A stretch of 64,000 nt of DNA, taken from contig NZ_CP041165.1 in assembly GCF_014905095.1 (NCBI RefSeq), positions 1,550,001 to 1,614,000 on the forward strand, written 5' to 3'. Each line of letters opens with the position of its first letter. The first letter of the stretch is position 1. The position numbers and the translations under genes were made by a program. The notes under the pieces are model-generated. The model searched no databases. It saw only the letters and a list, made by a program, of their open reading frames with translations, and was not told the DNA's origin. This DNA comes from Sulfurimonas marina (GTDB lineage Bacteria; Campylobacterota; Campylobacteria; Campylobacterales; Sulfurimonadaceae). Shown one piece after another: positions 38,640 through 64,000 of the stretch.

Positions 38640-38963
38640 ATGGACGGAAATATAGTGGTTAGTTACAAAGTATTATGTGAATCAGATATCTATAAAGAAG
38701 TATCTCTGAGTGAGCTTCTGCAAAACGAGAAAGTACTTAAGGTGATAAAATCGGAGTACGTAAAAGGTGGAAGGAACCTTGATGTACTTGCAAAAAATGA
38801 TGCTACAATTAAAATAGAAACGCAAAGAACGATTCACACATTTGAAGTATCGAAAAACGACTTTGCAGATCTGCTTATTTTAGCCGAAGAGGATGCTAGA
38901 AATAGAAAACTATTCAAAAAAGAGTGTGAACGTGTTGAACTGGTTGATATTGAAACAGTTTAA
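38640..38963 (+). CDS. Hypothetical small protein
   Basis: The 107-residue soluble protein has no cysteine-rich or membrane part except two scattered cysteines (C13, C100). Codon use looks like the neighbours. Its 3' end overlaps the end of the convergent lipoprotein gene by 4 bases. The AAAGG ribosome binding site is 9-10 bases from the ATG. Family not recognised. Confidence 0.6.
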   Translation: MDGNIVVSYKVLCESDIYKEVSLSELLQNEKVLKVIKSEYVKGGRNLDVLAKNDATIKIETQRTIHTFEVSKNDFADLLILAEEDARNRKLFKKECERVELVDIETV

Positions 38964-39778
38964 AAATCATATTTATCTAAACTCAGTACAAAACTGCTTT
39001 CACTATCATTTGTAAAATTTTGTATCTCTATAAAATATTCTGTATTGGCTTGAAAGTCAATCTGCATGCTCTCTTGTGTAGTACTAGCTGCACTGCTTTC
39101 ATAAATTAGCTGAGAATAATTAGGGTCTGAAAACACTTTAATATCCAAGTCCTGCTCGTTTTGTGCAATAAAAGTTTTCAGATAAAGCGTAGCATAGACT
39201 TGTGATGATACGTGAATATAATGTTTATCTTGAGCTGCATCATATGCATATAAGGGTGAGTCATATCCTATATAACTTAACAGAGTAAACTCATCAGAAC
39301 TTGTTAACTGTATTTGCATAGGTGTAGTTTTAGTATAGAAACCATTATCGATAGAGGGAGTCACCAACAAAGAATAAGTTACATCTGACATATTAGAATA
39401 GTTTTCTATCATAATATAATAGGTCTGATTTGCTTTTAGATTATAGTTTAATCTCTCTCCATACAATGATGTTGAATCTTTTGCTGTTATAAACTGAGTA
39501 AACTCTTCATCACTAAAGAGTACTATATCTAAATCTTGAAAATCTTCTGTCCCTATATGTATGGAATAATATCCGCTGCTAGAAGGGATGAATTTTAGAT
39601 AGCTTTTATTTAGTTCAGAACTATAATCTGCGAACATATAAAATGTATATACTTTTTTGTCAAATATTTGAGTCGGAGAATATTTTGAAAATGTAGATGT
39701 ACTTCCCCCGCTTCCACACCCGCTGAAAAAACTGAAAACAATGACTAAACTCACTAAAACTATAGTTTTCATACCCAT
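38960..39778 (-). CDS. Lipoprotein with two related beta-sandwich (PPC-like) domains
   Basis: The 272-residue protein has lipobox FSGC (C21) after a hydrophobic signal. Two copies of one pattern follow: QDLDIVLFSD ... LKANQTYYIMIENYSN (about residues 81-129) and QDLDIKVFSD ... FQANTEYFIEIQNFTN (about 209-256). The pattern resembles bacterial pre-peptidase C-terminal (PPC) domains, beta sandwiches in secreted proteins. Likely exposed at the periplasmic or outer surface. No catalytic motif is seen. A standalone gene. Confidence 0.7.
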   Translation of the reverse strand: MGMKTIVLVSLVIVFSFFSGCGSGGSTSTFSKYSPTQIFDKKVYTFYMFADYSSELNKSYLKFIPSSSGYYSIHIGTEDFQDLDIVLFSDEEFTQFITAKDSTSLYGERLNYNLKANQTYYIMIENYSNMSDVTYSLLVTPSIDNGFYTKTTPMQIQLTSSDEFTLLSYIGYDSPLYAYDAAQDKHYIHVSSQVYATLYLKTFIAQNEQDLDIKVFSDPNYSQLIYESSAASTTQESMQIDFQANTEYFIEIQNFTNDSESSFVLSLDKYDF

Positions 39779-54553: not shown

Positions 54554-55057
54554 CTAAGAAAAAGATTTTATCTTCATTAAAATCCGCTCCAAATCTTTCA
54601 AAGAGACATCTACCAGGTATAAACTATCCTCTTTTTGACTAGGATAAATTCTAAAATTATTAACTTTACCCAAATAATCAATATCGAAGTCAATACGACT
54701 ATCTAACGGATATGCTTTTAAAACCTGTAAAGATTCTATTCTATAAAGTTTTTTATCTTGAACTATATATCCTATATAGGGATTGATACGATCGTGAATA
54801 GAGTGCGAAGATTGAAAAAAGAGGATATCTATTTTCTTATCTTGCGGCAAAATCACGATTGTTTCTTGAAAACTCATAGAAAGGTCTAAAAAAATTGTTT
54901 GTTTAATACTCTCTATTTTTTCAATTTTATCTGTAGCTTCTTTATAGATTTTATTCTGCCCGTTTAATTCGGCATAACTTTTATATAAAAACACCATAAT
55001 TATAGAGAGTATTACGATGGAGATCATTAACTCAATAAGTGTAAAGGCTTTTCTCAT
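54554..55057 (-). CDS. Type II secretion-like minor pseudopilin (GspJ-like)
   Basis: The 167-residue protein has a prepilin signal MRKA|FTLIELM (conserved Glu at +5) and a hydrophobic helix followed by a periplasmic domain. The -1 residue is Ala rather than Gly. The periplasmic part does not clearly match GspG, H or I, and length fits GspJ. It overlaps the upstream pseudopilin gene by 4 bases and is the last gene of the operon. Confidence 0.72.
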   Translation of the reverse strand: MRKAFTLIELMISIVILSIIMVFLYKSYAELNGQNKIYKEATDKIEKIESIKQTIFLDLSMSFQETIVILPQDKKIDILFFQSSHSIHDRINPYIGYIVQDKKLYRIESLQVLKAYPLDSRIDFDIDYLGKVNNFRIYPSQKEDSLYLVDVSLKDLERILMKIKSFS

Positions 55058-55452
55058 TGGATCTTCACCCGTATCATTGAAGCTGAAAAGTTTTTAGACT
55101 CCAGCTTTGTTTTTCCGATCTCTAAAACACTTCCTGTAGGGGTCTCAAAATCATCAATTTCATCGTATGAAATTTTTACTTTTACAGCTTTTAGTTCACG
55201 TCTGAGATCACTCTCAAGCTCAAAATCATCTACAAACTCTTTGAGTGAGATACTGCTTTTTTCAAAACCGTATTTCTCAGAAGTTCCGAGTAAAAAAGAG
55301 TTGTATTGCGTCTCTTTAATCGATTGTTGCAGCCATAAGAGCTTGTTGTTTGCATCACCCCTTACTTGCAGTATTGCAGCGATCACGACACTGACAATCA
55401 TCACTGCCACCATCACTTCAATCAAGGTAAAAGCGCTGCGTTGTTTAGCCAT
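55054..55452 (-). CDS. Type II secretion-like minor pseudopilin (GspI-like)
   Basis: The 132-residue protein has prepilin leader MAKQRSA|FTLIEVM with Glu at +5 and helix MVAVMIVSVVIAAIL. Ala is at -1 again. The remaining domain is short and fits GspI. It overlaps the gspE end by 8 bases and gspJ-like start by 4 bases. Confidence 0.72.
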   Translation of the reverse strand: MAKQRSAFTLIEVMVAVMIVSVVIAAILQVRGDANNKLLWLQQSIKETQYNSFLLGTSEKYGFEKSSISLKEFVDDFELESDLRRELKAVKVKISYDEIDDFETPTGSVLEIGKTKLESKNFSASMIRVKIQ

Positions 55453-56965
55453 GCCCTATACCGATACGAATAGCTTCATCAAGTGAAGTTTCACCGTTTA
55501 TTAACATCATGCGGAGCTGTTTTGCGATCGTTTTAAGCCCGTCTGCTTCAAGTGCCGTTTTGATCGTATGTTCATCTGTAGTAGTTTTGAGCAAATCTTT
55601 TACATTGTCGTTCATGATTAAAAGTTCACCGATAGAGCGACGCCCCGCATAACCTGTATAGTTACACTCTTTACATCCGCAAGATTTATAGATCTTCGCA
55701 TCACGAGGAAGGTCATAATCCTCGCTAAAATTCTCAGCTAGTTCATCTTCCTCTTTACAATGAGGACAAAGTACACGCACAAGTCTCTGTGCCAAGATCC
55801 CTAAAAGTGAAGATGAGATTAAAAACGGTTCTATATTCATATCTGCAAGTCTCGATATTGTTGCTGCTGCCGAGTTTGTATGCAGAGTTGAAAAAACCAA
55901 GTGTCCCGTGAGTGCTGCACGAACTGCGATCGTAGCAGTCTCCTCATCACGAATCTCCCCGATCATAATAACATCAGGATCTTGACGAAGAATAGATCGA
56001 AGTGCCGAAGCAAATGTAAGCCCAACCTTCTCATTTACTTGAATTTGTGAGATATTATCACTTTTATATTCGACAGGATCTTCAACTGTTATAAGGTTTT
56101 TATGCGGCTCTTCCACTTCACGTAAGAATGAGTGAAGTGATGTTGTCTTACCACTCCCTGTCGGTCCCGTTACCAAGATAATTCCATGTGATGAGCGAAG
56201 CAGTTTTTTTACATCACTTATCATTGAGTCGTTAAATCCAAGCTCACTAATGTCCGGGATTTGCGAACTTTGCATCAGAAGCCTCATAACAACACGTTCA
56301 CCGTAAAAAGTTGGTAGAATAGAGACACGAATATCTAAAACTTCCCCAGCAATCTTGATCTGTGTACGACCGTCTTGAGGGATTCTTTTTTCAGAGATAT
56401 CAAGGTTTGAAATAACTTTAATACGACTCACAATGAGATTGACTATCTTTTTGTCGAGATCGGCATTTTTTGTCAACATCCCGTCTATACGGAAACGCAC
56501 TTCACCTTTGTTTTCGTGCACCTCAATATGGATATCTGATGCACGTTTTTTTACCGCCTGATAAAACAGAGCGTTTACAAACTTGATAATAGGTGCTGAC
56601 TCTTCACTTGTTAAGATATCTGTAGATGTTCTTAAAAAGTCTGTTAAAGAGAGTTCATCTTCCTCATCAACCTCCTCTTGTCTGTCCCCTTTCATTGTCT
56701 CGATCTCTTTATCAGTTCTTAGTTCTAAAAAGCGGTTGTAGAGTCTGTCAAAAGAATCCTCATCCAACATATATAACGGATACTCTTGTTCAAGCTTCGT
56801 ATAGTAGTTACTTGCTTCAACAAGATAACGCTTTGAAGTAAATGCAGCTACTTCTTCTGCATACTCACTAAAAAGCAGATAGTTTTTAACAGATAAATTT
56901 GTATCTAACTCCTCAATTTCAAGAGGTTCAAGGTGCAGATTATGGAGCGCTTCAATGTTTAGCAT
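55445..56965 (-). CDS. gspE: Type II secretion/transformation ATPase (GspE/CtsE-like)
   Basis: The 506-residue ATPase drives pseudopilus assembly. Walker A is GPTGSGKT (267-274). Asp box and His box motifs typical of GspE/PilB are present (GEIRDEETA). A zinc module with CPHC and CKEC is near residues 400-430. The N-terminal part (about 1-120) is shorter than in PilB. Overlap with gspD by 14 bases. In Campylobacter the related CtsE acts in DNA uptake, so the substrate type is undecided. Confidence 0.93.
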   Translation of the reverse strand: MLNIEALHNLHLEPLEIEELDTNLSVKNYLLFSEYAEEVAAFTSKRYLVEASNYYTKLEQEYPLYMLDEDSFDRLYNRFLELRTDKEIETMKGDRQEEVDEEDELSLTDFLRTSTDILTSEESAPIIKFVNALFYQAVKKRASDIHIEVHENKGEVRFRIDGMLTKNADLDKKIVNLIVSRIKVISNLDISEKRIPQDGRTQIKIAGEVLDIRVSILPTFYGERVVMRLLMQSSQIPDISELGFNDSMISDVKKLLRSSHGIILVTGPTGSGKTTSLHSFLREVEEPHKNLITVEDPVEYKSDNISQIQVNEKVGLTFASALRSILRQDPDVIMIGEIRDEETATIAVRAALTGHLVFSTLHTNSAAATISRLADMNIEPFLISSSLLGILAQRLVRVLCPHCKEEDELAENFSEDYDLPRDAKIYKSCGCKECNYTGYAGRRSIGELLIMNDNVKDLLKTTTDEHTIKTALEADGLKTIAKQLRMMLINGETSLDEAIRIGIGHG

Positions 56966-58790
56966 TGTTTTTCTCTTCTATCTGTTTAAATATATCTTGA
57001 TTGTACTTCTCCTGAATTTTTGAAAGCACACCGAGATCTTTTTGTAATTGAGATAGCTCTTCACTTTTATCGATCACATAAGGTGTCAGGATTACAACCA
57101 AGTTATCTTCCTCTTCTGCATCAGATGTTGAAGTAAAAAGTTTTCCTATTAGAGGAATATCTCCTAAAAGCGGTACCTTTGTAACTGTTTTATCTGAATA
57201 AGTTTTTACAAGTCCACCAATAATAATACTCTCACCATGGCGTAAAATTGCTTGTGTTTTCACCTCTTGTTTTGAAGTAACAGGTTGACGAACAGTTTGC
57301 CCGCTTGCATCAAGTCCGTCATCAAGTACATTTTCTAAAACTGCTTCTACATCAAGTGTCACTTTATCGTTTGAAGAGACGCGAGGTTTAATTTTTAAAG
57401 TTAAACCGACATCTTCACGTTTATAACTACTTGTAGTACCGCCAATTCCTGCACTTGTTGTAACAGAACCTGTCGAAATAGAGATTGTTTTACCTACATA
57501 AATAGATGATTCTTTATTATTTACACAAAGTATAGATGGATTAGAAATTGATTGTCCAGCACCGTTTTGTTGTAAAAAGTCTAATGTTGCACCAAGAGCT
57601 AAAGCAGATTGAGAAAGTGTTCCAATAGTTGTTCCTAGAGAATCTGCAACAACACCAGTAGCTGTATTTGTAAGATCAGCCGAACCAAAGTTTGCACTCA
57701 TAGCATATAATCCAGAAGATGAGATATCTCCCGCTGCAAAACCGTACTTAACACCGATATCCTGACTTTTATTTTTATTGATCTCTACAATTTTTGCCTG
57801 TACATAGACCTGAAACTTCTCTTTATCAAGCTCTTCAATAATTTTCTGAATCCCTTTAATTACCAAAGGATCTCCGATCACAACAATAGAGTTAATCTCG
57901 TCACTTGCAGAAACGTTCGGTTTCATTGCAGGGTCTTTAAAAGTTTGTTTTGCGATAATATCTGTAATCGTTTTCAGAACTGCCTGTGCATCTGAGTTTT
58001 TAAGCTGAAATATCTTTACAGTATTGTTAATGTTCGACTCTATATCAAGTTTAGCGACAATCTCGGCAAGTTTATTTACATTTTTTGCCTCTCCGACAAG
58101 TACCAAGCCATTGATATTTTCATCAACGACTATTGTTACCTGTTCAGAAACAACTTGTTGGTTGAAAATCGATTTTTGGATCTCTGAAAGTTTCAGGTTG
58201 AGTTTCTTTGCCTCTGTATTTTTGAGATATATAATCTTTACAATATTCTCAACATTACTACTAAGATCTTTTATAACTTTTTTGATTGTTTCAATATTTT
58301 TCGGATAGTCTGTAACTAAGAGTGTATTTGTCTCTTTCATTGTCATCAGTTTGGCAGTTTTTGAGATCAGGTATCTTACTTTTGCCGCTATTACGTCAAC
58401 ATTTTCACCTTTTACCACGATAGCCTGAGTTACCATAGTTGCACCGTAAAGCTTTTTATTTTTTCCGATTACGGGTACATTGCTTTTTGCTGCATCTGTT
58501 GCACGAATCACTTCATATCTTGAACCTTTTTGAACAAGTGTAAAACCTTTAGACTCCAGAACATCAACCAGCAACTCGATCAATTCATCATCATAAATAG
58601 GTGTTGAACTTATAAAGTTCACTGTCCCGTTTACTTGTTGCGTTACAAGAATATTTTTATGTGTAATCTTTGAAACCAATTCGATAAAATCATCAATTTT
58701 GACATTGGAGAAGTTAACATTTACCTTCTCTCTTGCATTTAAACTAGTAATTAAAAATAGTGTAATTAAAAAAACTTTAACGAATTTCAT
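56952..58790 (-). CDS. gspD: Type II secretin (GspD/CtsD-like)
   Basis: The 612-residue outer-membrane secretin has a signal peptide (1-19), N0-N3 ring domains (about 20-300) and a C-terminal secretin domain with VPLLGDIPLIGKLF. It forms the outer-membrane channel. The C-terminal tail is short, so no long S-domain for a pilotin is visible. Overlaps gspC by 14 bases. Confidence 0.94.
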   Translation of the reverse strand: MKFVKVFLITLFLITSLNAREKVNVNFSNVKIDDFIELVSKITHKNILVTQQVNGTVNFISSTPIYDDELIELLVDVLESKGFTLVQKGSRYEVIRATDAAKSNVPVIGKNKKLYGATMVTQAIVVKGENVDVIAAKVRYLISKTAKLMTMKETNTLLVTDYPKNIETIKKVIKDLSSNVENIVKIIYLKNTEAKKLNLKLSEIQKSIFNQQVVSEQVTIVVDENINGLVLVGEAKNVNKLAEIVAKLDIESNINNTVKIFQLKNSDAQAVLKTITDIIAKQTFKDPAMKPNVSASDEINSIVVIGDPLVIKGIQKIIEELDKEKFQVYVQAKIVEINKNKSQDIGVKYGFAAGDISSSGLYAMSANFGSADLTNTATGVVADSLGTTIGTLSQSALALGATLDFLQQNGAGQSISNPSILCVNNKESSIYVGKTISISTGSVTTSAGIGGTTSSYKREDVGLTLKIKPRVSSNDKVTLDVEAVLENVLDDGLDASGQTVRQPVTSKQEVKTQAILRHGESIIIGGLVKTYSDKTVTKVPLLGDIPLIGKLFTSTSDAEEEDNLVVILTPYVIDKSEELSQLQKDLGVLSKIQEKYNQDIFKQIEEKNNAKH

Positions 58791-59577
58791 ATATGATTTC
58801 CTTTTCTTGATTGTTTCTAAGTACTGTTAATTCTAAAACATCTATGCTATCTATCTTCTTATAAAGGTCCATTGCCGCCTTATAAGAGGTAAGTTCTACA
58901 TTGTTTGCCCGAATCATTATGTCACCTTTTTGAAGTCCCAACTCGGCTATTTTTGAGTTTGGTTTTACTTTATCTACTCGAAAGCCGGTAATCTTTTTAC
59001 CCTCAAACACTTCATTGATCGCAATATCACTCCACAACTTAGTTGGATTTTTCGTATAGTAGGTAATATCTGTTTTTTGCACTTCATGAGTTGTATTTGC
59101 AGCACTCTCTTTTTTTACAAACTCCTTTGGTTGCAGTTTTTTGTCACTATCGAGACTCACACTATACTCTTTACCCATCTTCTCAAAGATAACACTAAAG
59201 GTACCGATAGTTTTTAATCTATACCCTGCATACACTTCTCCGACAGAGATAACTGAAGTTTTATCCTTCTGTGCTTTTTTAGCAACGATCGCAAAACCTT
59301 TTTTACCTTTTCCGTAAAGCCCTTTTAAAACGATGGTACTAATACTTGTAGAAACGCTACTTTGAGGCTCTTGTGTAACCACAACCTTTGAGCGCTCAAG
59401 CATGTTTTTAAAGTCTATTCTCTTATAGCTTTGTGTATATGAGCCGCTCTCCTCATTATCTATCCCGCTGCTTGGAAGATACCACCAAATAGCCAAACTA
59501 AAGAGTTTTGCAAGAAGAACAAGCACTAAAAGCTTTGTAACTACCTTTAAAAGTTTCGAATTAGAGAGCTTTAACAT
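58777..59577 (-). CDS. GspC-like clamp protein with PDZ domain
   Basis: The 266-residue protein has one helix (about 12-30), a homology region (about 60-150) that would contact the secretin, and a C-terminal PDZ-like domain (about 185-262; LGLQKGDIMIRANNVELTS). GspC with PDZ links the inner-membrane platform and GspD. ATG 59577 is preferred over 59592 because GGGGAG precedes it. Position between GspN-like and GspD supports the call. Confidence 0.8.
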   Translation of the reverse strand: MLKLSNSKLLKVVTKLLVLVLLAKLFSLAIWWYLPSSGIDNEESGSYTQSYKRIDFKNMLERSKVVVTQEPQSSVSTSISTIVLKGLYGKGKKGFAIVAKKAQKDKTSVISVGEVYAGYRLKTIGTFSVIFEKMGKEYSVSLDSDKKLQPKEFVKKESAANTTHEVQKTDITYYTKNPTKLWSDIAINEVFEGKKITGFRVDKVKPNSKIAELGLQKGDIMIRANNVELTSYKAAMDLYKKIDSIDVLELTVLRNNQEKEIIYEIR

Positions 59578-60094
59578 ATTTATACTCCCCATTTTGATCT
59601 TTTTTAAACTCTCGTAAAGAGGTACGATATTTTGAAAGCATCAGTTTTGATGGTTTTAACACTAAAGATAAACTTTGCTCTAAAATACTAAACTCCCCTT
59701 CAAGTTCACCAAATCCGCCGTTTGCAGATATACTCACATTCAGCGGGTTTATAATTGAGTAGTTTACAGAAAGCTTTTCCACCTTTTTAGGGGCAAAGTT
59801 CTCTACAATTGAAGCCAGATTGATTCCGCTTACATCGATCGAGTTATACACACCGAGTAAAGTTATTTTTGTTGTTGCTATTTCTGCTGTTTCAATCCCC
59901 TGTGCAAACAGATGCGCATTATCGATCTCCAAGGTAAAAAACTTATCTTGCACTTTTTCCCCGGAGATTACAACATCAAATGCCCCAAGTTCCTGTTCTA
60001 GAAAATAGTACACACTTTGTTTAGGTGTAAATGCGATCAATGCTAAAACAAACACTAGAAAATATCCAAAAAACAGTGATAATTTTTTTACCAT
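59561..60094 (-). CDS. GspN-like protein
   Basis: The 177-residue protein has an N-terminal helix (about 5-22) and a beta-rich periplasmic domain. Gene order (between M-like and C-like) and the AsmA-like strand pattern (SGINLASIVENFAPKKVEKL, then NGGFGELEGEFS) fit GspN. It overlaps the gene before it by 7 bases and the next by 17 bases. Weak sequence evidence. Confidence 0.55.
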   Translation of the reverse strand: MVKKLSLFFGYFLVFVLALIAFTPKQSVYYFLEQELGAFDVVISGEKVQDKFFTLEIDNAHLFAQGIETAEIATTKITLLGVYNSIDVSGINLASIVENFAPKKVEKLSVNYSIINPLNVSISANGGFGELEGEFSILEQSLSLVLKPSKLMLSKYRTSLREFKKDQNGEYKYVKAL

Positions 60095-60495
60095 TTTATC
60101 TCCATCTCCAAGCTTACCGTATCATCGCCCAGTTTTTTAATCTCAAGCAGTGAAATGTTGTAAGAACCGTTTAACACTTTTCCCATCAAAGAGTTCAGGG
60201 CATCGGCATTCATAGTTTTTGCACTTATTTTGATCGAATCTTTTGTTACTTTTTTAATGATATTTGCAGACTTTAGTGAGGGCTGTCTTAAGATCCTCTC
60301 AATTGAACTTTTTATCTTCTTTTGATCGCCGTACACATCTTCAAGAGCATTTAGCTTTACAGCCACTTTTTTGCTCTCTTGATACTGCAGTTTTGCCTCA
60401 AGAAGTTCCTCTTTAAATGTACTTAATTTAAAAAATAAAAAGAGTAAAACAGTTAAAAGGAGTGCACCGATATGTAAAGGATTCACTTGATTCAT
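60088..60495 (-). CDS. GspM-like inner-membrane platform protein
   Basis: The 135-residue protein has one membrane helix (about 9-26), a coiled-coil segment and a ferredoxin-like periplasmic part, as expected for GspM. Family identity is inferred from size, topology and position between L-like and N-like genes. It overlaps the L-like gene by 4 bases. Confidence 0.6.
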   Translation of the reverse strand: MNQVNPLHIGALLLTVLLFLFFKLSTFKEELLEAKLQYQESKKVAVKLNALEDVYGDQKKIKSSIERILRQPSLKSANIIKKVTKDSIKISAKTMNADALNSLMGKVLNGSYNISLLEIKKLGDDTVSLEMEIKW

Positions 60496-61427
60496 AGTTT
60501 CACCTTTATCTCAAAAGTTTTCCCCTTAAATGAAGAGCTGAGAGCCGCTTTATAACTTTGCAGACTTTGCAGCACTTTTTTACTAGCAGCCGTATCTAAG
60601 CCAGATATCTTTACACTTAACATTTTATTTTTATATGCAATATCTGTAATCTTCTGCTCTTTTTCAAGTTTGAGTTTTAAAAATTCTGCAATAAGCTCAC
60701 GCAGTTTCGTTTGTTTTTCAAAAGTTGTTTCATACTCCTGAAGCACAGAACGGTTTTGCATCATAGTGGGATAGAGTTTATACTCTTCAAAGAGTTTCTC
60801 TTTTTGTATGTTTACACTCTCGATCTTTTGCATCGTTATAAAGTTTTCAATTCCTAAAAGGATAATAAACATACCAATTAATACAGCTACTTTATACAAA
60901 CTGCTATTGTCGATAATATGTGAAAACTGTTGTAGTTTGATAGTTTTTTTTGAGAGTTTCAAAGAATCTAATGAAAGCTCTTCTGCCGTTTCATTCCAAA
61001 CTCTCGGAGCTATAAACACTATCTCATTATCAACAACCATTACCTCTTTTTCATTTATTTTACACGGCAATAATTCTAATAGTTCCGTTTGTGCAAAATA
61101 TACATTGTTAATGCTTGAGATAGAAATATTTTTCTTCCCTATCTCTTCAATGATCTTTTTATCTTCATACGCAAATGCTAAAAACTCTTCCCCCTCTTTA
61201 AACACTACATAACTGTAGTTTCCTTCTGGGAGATTATCCTCAAAAAGTGACGGTAACAGTTTTTTAGCATCTCTGGCGTATTTTACGGGTAGACTTAGTT
61301 TTTTCACCCAGTAAAGTGACGGAGAAAGGACTATATCTACTTTTGTACCACCAGCAATCTCCGGTGCTTTCTCACTGTGGGGATCTAAAAAAACAACACT
61401 GCTGGTTGTTTTAAATTTCGTAAACAA
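60492..61427 (-). CDS. GspL-like inner-membrane platform protein
   Basis: The 311-residue protein has an N-terminal cytoplasmic domain (about 1-180) of actin-like fold that normally binds GspE, one helix (about 184-203) and a periplasmic part (about 205-311). Layout matches GspL. It overlaps the K-like gene by 17 bases and the M-like gene by 4 bases. Sequence similarity is low. Confidence 0.62.
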   Translation of the reverse strand: MFTKFKTTSSVVFLDPHSEKAPEIAGGTKVDIVLSPSLYWVKKLSLPVKYARDAKKLLPSLFEDNLPEGNYSYVVFKEGEEFLAFAYEDKKIIEEIGKKNISISSINNVYFAQTELLELLPCKINEKEVMVVDNEIVFIAPRVWNETAEELSLDSLKLSKKTIKLQQFSHIIDNSSLYKVAVLIGMFIILLGIENFITMQKIESVNIQKEKLFEEYKLYPTMMQNRSVLQEYETTFEKQTKLRELIAEFLKLKLEKEQKITDIAYKNKMLSVKISGLDTAASKKVLQSLQSYKAALSSSFKGKTFEIKVKL

Positions 61428-62337
61428 AGTTATACCCTTTCTTATTTTTCATATCGTATTCAAAACTTATATGTGAAGTAATGTTTTCTCTTATTATATC
61501 CATTTTTATAAACAAATACGGAACAAAGGTATCTGTAGGAAATTTATTAATTCTGTTTTTCTCCTCTTCACCTAATGACAACCCTTTATAAAGCTCCTCT
61601 TTAGAACTGTATACCACCTCTTGTGAGCTTAAAAATTTCGCTCTTTCAGGCGTTGCTCCTGTTATTAACTCCCACACTTCAGATGTAGCATAATTCAGAT
61701 CTATAGTTACATTTCTCTCTGTAGTTGTGTTTCTGTCTGTCGAAAAATTAAAAAGGTTTGTAAAATTGATCGCATCAATTGAGTCATCCTGATACTCTCT
61801 TTTATAAAACCTGTTAATCTTTTTAAGATGTTTCATAGAAGCAATAGAACCTCGAAAGAGTGTCGGGTCCTCCTCAAAAATAGTAGTATTGTAATAAATC
61901 CCCTCTTTCGGTTCTTTCATAACATCTTTAAGAAGTTCTATATATTCCCCTCTTACATTGTATCTAGTAAGGTACTCATATAAAAACTCTTCTTGTATAC
62001 GATCCATAAAGTTGATCGCAAAAGTTGAACGTCCACTTGTAATATAGACTATCAAGTGGGTACCGTTGTTGTTTAACGGTATACCACTCTCTATCCCCGC
62101 TAAGAAAACATACAACTCCTCTGCAGATTTATTGTCAACTATACTTTTCAATTGCTCAGAACCGTTTAAAAGGGATATAACATCATCTACAAAGATATGG
62201 TCCTGATAGAGACTTTTCTCTTTTTCCACATACTTTGAAGAGTTATTGATCTGCTTTAAAGTATAACCCACTGCCACCGTAATGATAATTACAAACATTA
62301 CCGTAATAAGAAGTGCTATCCCTCTTTTTTTCTGCAT
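61411..62337 (-). CDS. GspK-like minor pseudopilin
   Basis: The 308-residue protein has prepilin leader MQKKRG|IALLITVMFVII, with Gly at -1 and no Glu at +5, as usual for GspK. A large periplasmic domain follows, ending in a helix-hairpin-helix-like segment (ATSEVWELITGATPERA). GspK starts the pseudopilus tip. Adjacent to gspF without a gap. Confidence 0.78.
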   Translation of the reverse strand: MQKKRGIALLITVMFVIIITVAVGYTLKQINNSSKYVEKEKSLYQDHIFVDDVISLLNGSEQLKSIVDNKSAEELYVFLAGIESGIPLNNNGTHLIVYITSGRSTFAINFMDRIQEEFLYEYLTRYNVRGEYIELLKDVMKEPKEGIYYNTTIFEEDPTLFRGSIASMKHLKKINRFYKREYQDDSIDAINFTNLFNFSTDRNTTTERNVTIDLNYATSEVWELITGATPERAKFLSSQEVVYSSKEELYKGLSLGEEEKNRINKFPTDTFVPYLFIKMDIIRENITSHISFEYDMKNKKGYNFVYEI

Positions 62338-63555
62338 CTATTGAATACTCATTGAAAAAATTGGTAATAGCATCGCCGCTACGATAAAACCGATACTTCC
62401 GCCTACAAAAAGCATTAAAGCAGGTTCAAGCAGCGTTAAAAGAAGAGAGATCTTATCACGGTTCTCTTCAAAATAAAGCTCTGAGACATTTGTTAAAACA
62501 CTCTCAATTTCTGATGTCTCTTCACCAAGAGCAATCGCCTGTACAAAAGCATCATCAAGTTGTACGTTCGCATTGTAAAGTGCATGGGAAAGCAGTTTAC
62601 CCTCAACCACTTTTTTACTTGCATCTATAAACAACTCTTTGATCACTTTATTACTCAAAATATTTGCACTCATATTGATTGTTTGAACAAAAACAACACC
62701 CGAACGTGTCAAGAGTGAAGCGATGTAAGAGAAACGTGCAAGCTCACTTTTTAAAATAATCGTACCAAAAAGGGGGACTTTTAGTAAAAGTTTGTCCACA
62801 AAGTAGGCAAAACTGTATATCTTCTTTTTTAGAGTAACAAAAAGTGCCGTAAAGATAAAAATCAATGCCAAAATCATTTGAAAATTTTCACTAAAGAAAT
62901 CTCCAAGCCCTATGACTACTTTTGTAGGGGTTGGAAGTTCTTGGTCCATACTCTCAAAAATCCCCGTAATTTGCGGTACTACATAGGTAAGCATAAAGGC
63001 GATCATCACCAAAGAGATAATGATCATAAACGACGGATAAGCAAAAGCACCTTTAATCTCTTTTGCTATTTTATCCTGCTCTTTTAAAAAGCGGGACAGT
63101 TCCATAAGTACCTCATCTAGAATTCCACCGTCTTCACTTACACGGATAGACTCTACAAAAAACTCCGGAAGTTCTACCACATCCTGAGAAGAGAGGGCAC
63201 TGTAGAAGTTTTCCCCTTCATCTAGATGTGTATTTACCGTTGTTAAAAAAAGCTTTATTTTTTTATTTTTAGCGTAATGTGTTTGAACAATTTTCAAAGC
63301 CGAGACAATACTCATACCTGAACGGATATACATAGAGAGTTCACGAGCAAGAAGCGCCAACTCTTTAGAGGAGATCTTATAACGCTTTTTAATTTTAAAC
63401 TTCTCATAAAACGGAAGTGAATCCTCTTTTATATCGCTGTAGATAATTCCCGTCGCTTTGAGCTTTGCCTTCACCTCTTCAAGAGTTGCAGCTTCAACTC
63501 TGTCAGTGACATTTTTTCCCGTTTTATCTATACCTTTATATTTAAAAATCATCAC
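62338..63555 (-). CDS. gspF: Type II secretion inner-membrane protein GspF
   Basis: The 405-residue protein has two GspF domains, each with a helical bundle. Signatures include LARELSMYIRSGMSIVSALK in the first and SELARFSYIASLLTRSGVVF in the second, and three membrane helices (about 172-192, 222-242, 372-395). It is the platform on which GspE acts. It overlaps the pseudopilin gene upstream by 4 bases. Confidence 0.94.
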   Translation of the reverse strand: MMIFKYKGIDKTGKNVTDRVEAATLEEVKAKLKATGIIYSDIKEDSLPFYEKFKIKKRYKISSKELALLARELSMYIRSGMSIVSALKIVQTHYAKNKKIKLFLTTVNTHLDEGENFYSALSSQDVVELPEFFVESIRVSEDGGILDEVLMELSRFLKEQDKIAKEIKGAFAYPSFMIIISLVMIAFMLTYVVPQITGIFESMDQELPTPTKVVIGLGDFFSENFQMILALIFIFTALFVTLKKKIYSFAYFVDKLLLKVPLFGTIILKSELARFSYIASLLTRSGVVFVQTINMSANILSNKVIKELFIDASKKVVEGKLLSHALYNANVQLDDAFVQAIALGEETSEIESVLTNVSELYFEENRDKISLLLTLLEPALMLFVGGSIGFIVAAMLLPIFSMSIQ

Positions 63556-64000
63556 TTCACTTCTTGTATTAACTGCTCTTTTTCATCTACACACTCTTGC
63601 AAAGTATCGTAAACTTTTACACCCTTAAAGTACTCACTATAATCATATACTTTATCTTTAAAGGCAACTATATACTGGTCAGAAATGCCGTCTCTGGCAA
63701 CTTCAAACTCAAAACACCCTTTAAATCTTTGTTGTACTAAACCTTCTGAATAGCTATATCTATAAACTTCTATAGAATCATCGATCAGTTCTTCGATTTC
63801 TGCTCGTTTCTCTTGATCTATATAAAGAGTACATACAGAACAATCATCCTCACAGACAAGCTTCGAAGAGTTACCGTCTTTGATCTGTTTATACATATAA
63901 CTTTTCAGATTTTTTAAACTCAGCTTCTCTTGCTCTTCATTTACACTATGAAGTTTTGTTATCACAAGGGTATAGACAACCCCGATGATAACTATTACTA
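63552..64000 (-). CDS. Partial pseudopilin-like protein, N terminus beyond the right edge
   Basis: The frame is open to the window edge and continues past a GTG at 63965 that could be mistaken for a start. Upstream codons encode a hydrophobic stretch VIVIIGVVYTLVITKL, which looks like the N-terminal helix of a pseudopilin; the leader and conserved glutamate lie outside. The visible 137 residues after the GTG contain four or five cysteines (CEDDCSVC and others), suggesting disulphides or a metal site. It overlaps gspF by 4 bases. GspG or GspH type cannot be decided. Confidence 0.65.
   Translation of the reverse strand, partial: VIVIIGVVYTLVITKLHSVNEEQEKLSLKNLKSYMYKQIKDGNSSKLVCEDDCSVCTLYIDQEKRAEIEELIDDSIEVYRYSYSEGLVQQRFKGCFEFEVARDGISDQYIVAFKDKVYDYSEYFKGVKVYDTLQECVDEKEQLIQEVK

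Follow-up and report, generated by a model that had tools for sequence, protein, structure and literature searches.

A divergent type II secretion operon in a Sulfurimonas-related bacterium, with surface lipoproteins as its probable cargo

Does an operon that combines secretin, assembly ATPase and pseudopilin genes serve protein secretion, DNA uptake or the building of a pilus? The question is raised by positions 54554-64000 of the window, a stretch of 64 000 nucleotides covering bases 1550001-1614000 of the 2.26 Mb single-contig genome of a Sulfurimonas-related bacterium, where a run of genes resembles a type II secretion system (T2SS; Gsp, Pul, Xcp or Out). An earlier note, made from the letters of the DNA, had described a nearly complete operon of undecided role and had leaned towards real protein secretion. 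The evidence on components C, K and L and the presence of a separate Cts-like locus narrow that role to a presumed function in protein secretion. The operon is almost certainly a complete, divergent chromosomal T2SS, with M and N named from their positions. Surface lipoproteins are probably a main cargo class, as suggested by conservation, adjacency, a motif and the published function of GspN, and the two statements, taken loosely together, appear likely.

Ten complete genes and one cut pseudopilin gene make up the run, all on the minus strand and in the frames where the earlier note had placed them, and neighbouring frames overlap by 4-32 bases, with the exception of F and K, which abut. A gspH-like minor pseudopilin gene, cut by the window end (63552-64000), is followed by gspF, for the inner-membrane platform protein (62338-63555), gspK, for the tip pseudopilin (61411-62337), and a shortened gspL (60492-61427), predicted from its fold to join a cytoplasmic domain, a transmembrane segment and a periplasmic ferredoxin-like domain in one chain. 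Next come a gspM-like gene for 135 amino acids with a hydrophobic N-terminus (60088-60495), a gspN-like gene for 177 amino acids (59561-60094), gspC, for the inner-membrane clamp with its PDZ domain (58777-59592), gspD, for the outer-membrane secretin (56952-58790), gspE, for the assembly ATPase (55445-56965), and the gspI-like (55054-55452) and gspJ-like (54554-55057) minor pseudopilin genes, the latter being the last of the operon, with a gap of 26 bases to the following minus-strand frame. Beyond the window, in a segment termed L007 (genome C1:1600001-1620000; L007 position equals window position minus 50000), the H-like gene is completed (L007:13552-14034, minus strand, 160 amino acids), and gspG, for which the earlier note had advised a look upstream, lies three bases upstream of it on the same strand (L007:14038-14427, 129 amino acids). 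A gene for a lipoprotein of 1422 amino acids, here called X, is found 134 bases further upstream (L007:14562-18830, minus strand). With gspG included, the order is G-H-F-K-L-M-N-C-D-E-I-J. The synteny survey that had also been proposed finds the same order in related genomes, and it is therefore not a chance run of open reading frames (ORFs). The ends of the operon are unproved, because a scan for promoters and terminators stayed at the level of shuffled sequence (50 found versus a mean of 51.4, and 8 versus 6.6).

The usual T2SS order is C-D-E-F-G-H-I-J-K-L-M-N, and that of E. coli K-12 runs from C to M, then O. The window operon keeps the blocks C-D-E, G-H, I-J and K-L-M-N in a rearranged order, which confirms the earlier remark that the arrangement departs from the classical C-to-N and extends it with G. 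As to the operon being 'nearly complete', every component from C to N is represented, and only the prepilin peptidase lies outside: gspO is not in the operon, and two prepilin peptidases (PF01478 over cut-off) are encoded elsewhere, at C1:1013931-1014311 and within a Tad-type locus.

Sequence profiles identify several components with confidence. The secretin scores 359.8 bits with TIGR02517 (cut-off 351.35) and contains the GspD N0 domain, and the major pseudopilin GspG exceeds the cut-offs of both TIGR01710 (108.7 against 88.85 bits) and PF08334 (71.9 against 21). The GspC-type PDZ clamp, singled out in the earlier note, is upheld: TIGR01713 gives an E-value of 1.1e-26 at 94.0 bits, 7.6 short of its cut-off of 101.6, the PDZ domain scores 22.5 bits against a cut-off of 23.2, and a profile of 17 GspC sequences has OutC (6hcg_e) as its best match, at 1.6e-17 over residues 12-270. 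GspF and GspE pass the Pfam cut-offs of T2SSF (139.6 bits) and T2SSE (453 bits). GspF scores 265 bits with TIGR02120, less than the equivalog cut-off of 424, and lower still with two PilC models (211 and 208); GspE scores 561 bits with TIGR02533 versus 481 with the PilB model, both below cut-off. Since E and F of the Cts-like locus also rank T2SS models first, these two proteins are non-discriminating. The naming of H, I and J follows prepilin N-terminal motifs and positions, all subtype models staying below cut-off. The H-like protein has an N_methyl motif and matches TIGR01708 at E 5.2e-6; the I-like protein (N_methyl, 30.6 bits) matches TIGR01707 at 4.4e-4 and the gspH model TIGR01708 at 8e-5; and the J-like protein (N_methyl, 32.3 bits) matches TIGR01711 at 0.026, with another pseudopilin model scoring better.

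K, L, M and N of the window fall below Pfam and NCBIfam detection, a difference from known T2SS. Pfam searches with relatives of K (16), L (17) and M (16) returned no T2SS family except one T2SSM match in a single relative of M (E 0.037), profile searches of the PDB with K and L returned nothing relevant, and hidden Markov models (HMMs) alone neither support nor refute the four assignments. K and L are settled as GspK and GspL by the folds of AlphaFold models built from family alignments. The K model (predicted local distance difference test, pLDDT, 86.5) matches GspK (3ci0_K) at Z 16.2 with a root-mean-square deviation (rmsd) of 3.7 over 247 aligned residues and the Xcp pseudopilin complexes (XcpVWX) at 15.8-15.9, the next entry being a type IV pilin at 7.7, and hhalign pairs K with E. 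coli K-12 GspK at E 2.3e-6 and probability 89. The best four rows for the L model (pLDDT 86.0; predicted template modelling score, pTM, 0.51) are the cytoplasmic domains of EpsL, GspL and PulL, at Z 9.7-10.6 and rmsd 3.5-4.5 over 154-164 aligned residues, with PilM rows lower at 6.6-6.8. The C-terminal domain of L finds PulL, XcpY, EpsL and PilO at Z 6.3-7.8, a range shared with unrelated designed proteins, so the specific match of L is that of the cytoplasmic domain. By sequence, L resembles the single E. coli GspL weakly (hhalign E 0.089), and it is shorter, with 311 amino acids against 387 in E. coli K-12. In most loci M separates L from N, and its alignment with E. coli GspM is poor (E 0.58); N lies directly before C, and the NCBIfam model for GspN, TIGR04411, weakly matches five of 17 relatives of N (best E 0.016). 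Paraburkholderia pBPHY02 was considered as a GspN reference and not used, its listing having gspD and no other gsp gene. In common with known T2SS, the window operon unites in one locus GspC, D, E, F, G, K and L, by profile or fold, and H, I and J, by pseudopilin motif and position, and the genome holds separate MSH-type and Tad-type loci.

These identities bear on the idea that the operon encodes a type IV pilus (T4P) that gained a GspC-like protein. E, F and the pseudopilins are common to the whole superfamily, and the genome encodes two PilT-family ATPases; however, these are the only ones and both lie outside the operon, at C1:1421256 and C1:455361, so that the operon itself is without PilT. 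Moreover, L is one fused chain, not a split PilM/PilN, and its best folds are those of GspL; GspG and GspD are both over their cut-offs; and the fold matches of K to GspK stand far above unrelated rows. A pilus of this kind is thus extremely improbable. The outcome that the earlier note had held decisive against a secretion role, that the L-, M-, N- and C-like proteins belong purely to a T4P or Cts set, was not obtained: C is GspC, and K and L have GspK and GspL folds.

A second alternative is a DNA-uptake (Cts or competence) system, as in Campylobacter jejuni, where T2SS/T4P-like genes serve transformation (PMC10046745; this and the other papers given by PMC number are cited from extracts of their text). 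The genome, searched for ComEC among the competence proteins, does contain a homologue, although at C1:278 kb, away from the operon. A separate locus (C1:733.8-743.2 kb, L008) encodes a secretin that passes the MshL cut-off (269.2 against 250.2 bits), a PilO-like protein just short of its own (21.7 against 22 bits), an AAA protein, an ATPase bearing an MshEN domain and an F protein; the window secretin reaches 129.7 with the same MshL model, and no AAA gene besides gspE is found in the operon. We call this second locus 'Cts-like' by its gene content rather than by comparison with C. jejuni sequence. MSH-type systems have been reported in Epsilonproteobacteria (PMC6668835), with which the MshL-type locus of this genome agrees. 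A third locus, at C1:2136-2143 kb (L009), carries what are presumably Tad-type pilus genes and a small prepilin peptidase of its own. The window operon is akin to the Campylobacter Cts and MSH-type systems in its homologous E and F and in the secretin superfamily, and differs in having GspC, GspD, GspG, GspK and GspL, of which GspC and GspK are T2SS parts. As the MshL-type, Cts-like set sits elsewhere and its AAA gene, the CtsP-like ATPase, is often present without GspC (34 of 119 genomes), a competence role is rejected as very improbable.

How widely is this system distributed? Of 119 related genomes, 70 contain a relative of GspC, and these span 25 of the 34 genera. The genome count includes two with slighter matches (G115, a PDZ match of 47 residues, and G035, E 2e-7) and falls to 69 of 119 without G115; within the genus, 39 of 72 genomes have GspC. 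CtsP-like ATPases, judged from one AAA protein and possibly including paralogues, occur in 96 of the 119. Both are present in 62 genomes, GspC alone in eight, the CtsP-like ATPase alone in 34 and neither in 15, and the two are separable because each is found on its own. Within the genus, on a tree of 60 tips, GspC requires 11 parsimony changes, some of which may represent gaps in drafts. The N gene stands directly before C in all 63 loci examined, a set that includes some genomes twice and in which 20 loci supplied the N profile. Ten loci outside the genus mostly keep the K-L-M-N-C-D-E block, and F, G-H-I and J move; the exceptions are K located elsewhere (L057), no M detected (L056) and a locus cut short (L055). 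In one Sulfurimonas locus (L089), an insertion separates K from L: in this strain, Sulfurimonas sp. SAG-AH-194-C21, a lipoprotein of 1144 amino acids (CGDGSTST; L089:1909-5343) and other ORFs lie between gspK and gspL.

T2SS genes are also plasmid-borne, in Nitratiruptor and Aliarcobacter cryaerophilus. These systems share with the window operon the annotated GspG, F, D and E, together with unnamed or PDZ-annotated genes of the size and position of K, L, M, N and C; they differ in being on plasmids and, in Nitratiruptor, in an inverted G-H-F and an S8 peptidase gene per plasmid. The Nitratiruptor plasmids pNitYY0918_PLS (L108) and pNitYY0826_PLS (L109), of 24 and 35 kb, were both called non-mobilizable by MOB-suite, and the former encodes a lipoprotein beginning CGGGGSSA (L108:12971-14257).

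Published annotation is mixed. According to the extracts of one survey, T2SS were absent in 98 Epsilonproteobacteria (PMC4793230), a result that, we guess, reflects K, L, M and N scoring too low with the profiles used. Elsewhere, GspCDEFLM were annotated in Nautilia PV-1 (PMC10092268), GspH/F/G in Sulfurovum indicum (PMC10045233), a T2SS in vent symbionts (PMC7580541) and a T2SS with subunits missing in an aquifer epsilonproteobacterium (PMC4674564).

If the operon secretes proteins, which ones? In Acinetobacter (InvL) and Klebsiella (PulA), GspN is required for the transport of lipoproteins by the T2SS, and in such lipoproteins the residues that follow the cysteine are rich in G/S or N/D, positions P2'-P4' being GGG or ND(N/D) (PMC12802150). 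The system described here resembles these GspN-type T2SS in the N-position gene of the 63 loci and in lipoproteins of the C-GGG/S kind, one of them beside the operon; it differs in that its N has 177 amino acids and is assigned by position, in that it belongs to another phylum and in that it is known from genes alone. The neighbouring lipoprotein is X, which has a lipobox, a mature start of CSGGGSSD, and bacterial-Ig (Big) and cadherin-like domains. Its start contains six G/S, against a threshold of more than four G/S (or N/D) in P1'-P8'. No other gene of the genome belongs to its family, and relatives of its N-terminal region are found near the operon in other genomes.

The X family co-occurs with GspC. 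It is present in 47 of the 119 genomes, 42 of which have GspC, compared with 28 of the other 72 (Fisher p 1.9e-8). In the subset of 91 genomes with a completeness of 90% or more, GspC is found in 37 of 39 with X versus 19 of 52 without (3.9e-9), and in 30 of 32 versus 19 of 52 when the profile's seven seed genomes are left out (8e-8). Pagel tests on a tree built from Cts-locus proteins, which takes the place of a species tree and has a CtsP-like gene at every tip, gave a likelihood ratio (LR) of 18.4 (p 0.001) for 60 tips and 21.3 (p 0.0003) for the 43 tips at least 90% complete, each with none of 60 bootstraps as high. The association grows in near-complete genomes, and missing sequence is therefore no explanation for it. 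With seed genomes excluded, nine of the 68 X genes are no further than 20 kb from gspC, against 1.3 expected; for this count, multiple X matches in one frame were merged manually, which removed eight rows. In one genome (G083, L050:4502-5302), the region just downstream of J contains an X-family lipoprotein and an additional frame with weak similarity to H (E 3e-4).

The motif itself was searched for in the 119 genomes with a DNA pattern for [LF]-x-G-C-[GSR]-G-G, which also allows F in place of L and R in place of S. This GGG pattern occurs 137 times in the 70 genomes with GspC and 13 times in the 49 without (Mann-Whitney p 1.1e-7), and a reversed-pattern control 15 and seven times, a non-significant difference. 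Within the genus, the counts are 44 in 39 genomes versus eight in 33 (p 5e-4), and 33 in 28 versus four in 20 for members at least 90% complete (p 9.5e-4). Read in frame with a strict signal-peptide filter, lipoprotein starts underlie 32 of the 44 matches in GspC-bearing members of the genus and four of the 13 in all genomes without GspC, as well as 12 of 13 matches inspected, out of 93, in GspC-bearing members of other families. Pagel tests of the pattern and GspC on 60 tips gave p 0.0097 for raw matches and 0.003 for those passing the filter, with no bootstrap of 60 as high; the filter is a rule of our own, which rejected some likely lipoproteins (L122, L162, L180 and L182) and accepted some short frames (L127 and L166). 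Around T2SS loci, 17 of 23 lipoprotein-like ORFs in the flanks have at least five G/S/N/D in P2'-P8', a count looser than the published rule and with no matched background.

The same data can be read in another way, namely that this is a true T2SS which mainly secretes soluble enzymes, the lipoprotein link reflecting larger, more surface-active genomes. The S8 (subtilase) peptidase on each of the two Nitratiruptor plasmids speaks for it, as does an S8 peptidase with a lipobox near the operon of one Sulfurimonas, and the GGG pattern is absent in part of the GspC-bearing genomes and marginal in its association once the tree is accounted for in near-complete genomes. Against it stand the reversed pattern, which shows no significant difference, the association of the X family, which keeps its strength with the tree accounted for and in near-complete genomes alike, the G/S/N/D-rich lipoprotein-like ORFs of the flanks, with the reservation on background already made, and the presence of N in all 63 loci, while several model T2SS have no gspN according to the extracts of PMC12802150. 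On balance, a chiefly soluble cargo seems doubtful. The Sulfurimonas case, from a metagenome-assembled genome, is a subtilase that carries a lipobox (CSDSHPDN) and a P-domain and is encoded upstream of gspG, one small ORF away (L071:2207-4606).

Lipoproteins as a main cargo of a complete T2SS remain the preferred reading, and a number of observations weigh against it. The X family has no match in 28 of the 70 genomes with GspC, and five genomes with X have no GspC match. Twenty-four of the 70 have no GGG pattern, and on the 43 near-complete tips the Pagel test of this pattern is marginal (p 0.049 and 0.052, with two and three of 60 bootstraps as high), so that missing sequence may explain part of the GGG association. 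Three convincing GGG lipoproteins occur in genomes without GspC, two in G100 and one in G056, which is 67% complete. A fourth, in G006, has no G/S-rich run, and in a further genome without GspC (G032:C25, L143) a lipoprotein start, FVGCGGGGK, meets a stop after a few codons, which may reflect gene decay or faulty assembly. The assignment of M and N follows position and topology, with no sequence profile confirming it. GspC and the CtsP-like ATPase are weakly associated over the 119 genomes (odds ratio 3.4, Fisher p 0.017) and non-significantly so in those at least 90% complete (2.4, p 0.16); for two genes that we have no cause to connect, this suggests that missing draft sequence inflates counts of this kind somewhat. 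Finally, no secretion experiment in Campylobacterota was found in the extracts of the literature consulted, and no paper among the matches listed from the open-access literature links GspN or lipoprotein export to this phylum.

Beyond X, several candidate cargo proteins are recognised by their motif. In the window, a lipoprotein of 272 amino acids with CGSGGSTS after the lipobox is encoded at 38960-39778 on the minus strand. A cluster elsewhere in the genome (L120:3594-10867, C1:2107594-2114867) encodes an imelysin-family protein, a di-haem MauG/peroxidase-like protein and two more lipoprotein-like ORFs, and three of these four have G/S- or N/D-rich starts. The motif marks the imelysin and MauG-type proteins; the starts CGGGGSDS (six G/S) and CGGGGGEQ (five) occur in L120, and a lipoprotein of the cluster begins CNGDNAYD. 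Shewanella MtrC is said to reach the cell surface via the T2SS. MtrC/MtrF-like multihaem lipoproteins with the motif are found in two GspC-bearing relatives, at L157:268-2547 (nine CxxCH, CSGGGTSD) and L169:3-1697 (eight CxxCH, CGGGSSSN), and might be surface electron-transfer proteins in Campylobacterota. Surface lipoproteins dependent on GspD are known in Shewanella, as stated in general terms in PMC12802150.

By analogy with known T2SS, Sec would export the precursors to the periplasm, and the PDZ-bearing GspC would join L, M and N in an inner-membrane platform around GspF. Adenosine triphosphate (ATP) hydrolysis by GspE would extend a short pseudopilus of GspG with H, I, J and K at its tip, the pseudopilins being processed by a prepilin peptidase encoded elsewhere, and the pseudopilus would push folded cargo through the GspD secretin. 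A main class of cargo would be lipoproteins with a mature C-GGG/S start, whose lipid anchor may be handled by GspN, and the first of these would be the cadherin/Big-domain lipoprotein X, encoded just upstream of gspG.

A T2SS is thus found in a bacterial group that, in the extracts of the survey cited above (PMC4793230), was reported without one. If lipoproteins are indeed its cargo, the newly found function of GspN would extend to another phylum, and candidate surface proteins, including MtrC-like cytochromes, could be named in sulfur-cycling bacteria. More tentatively, and with somewhat less than even confidence, we suggest that Campylobacterota widely use a divergent GspN-type T2SS chiefly for the surface display of lipoproteins, among them cadherin/Big giants, imelysin and MauG-type proteins and MtrC-like cytochromes. 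If so, the T2SS would be a gatekeeper for the contact of these bacteria with solid substrates, be they sulfur, minerals or hosts.

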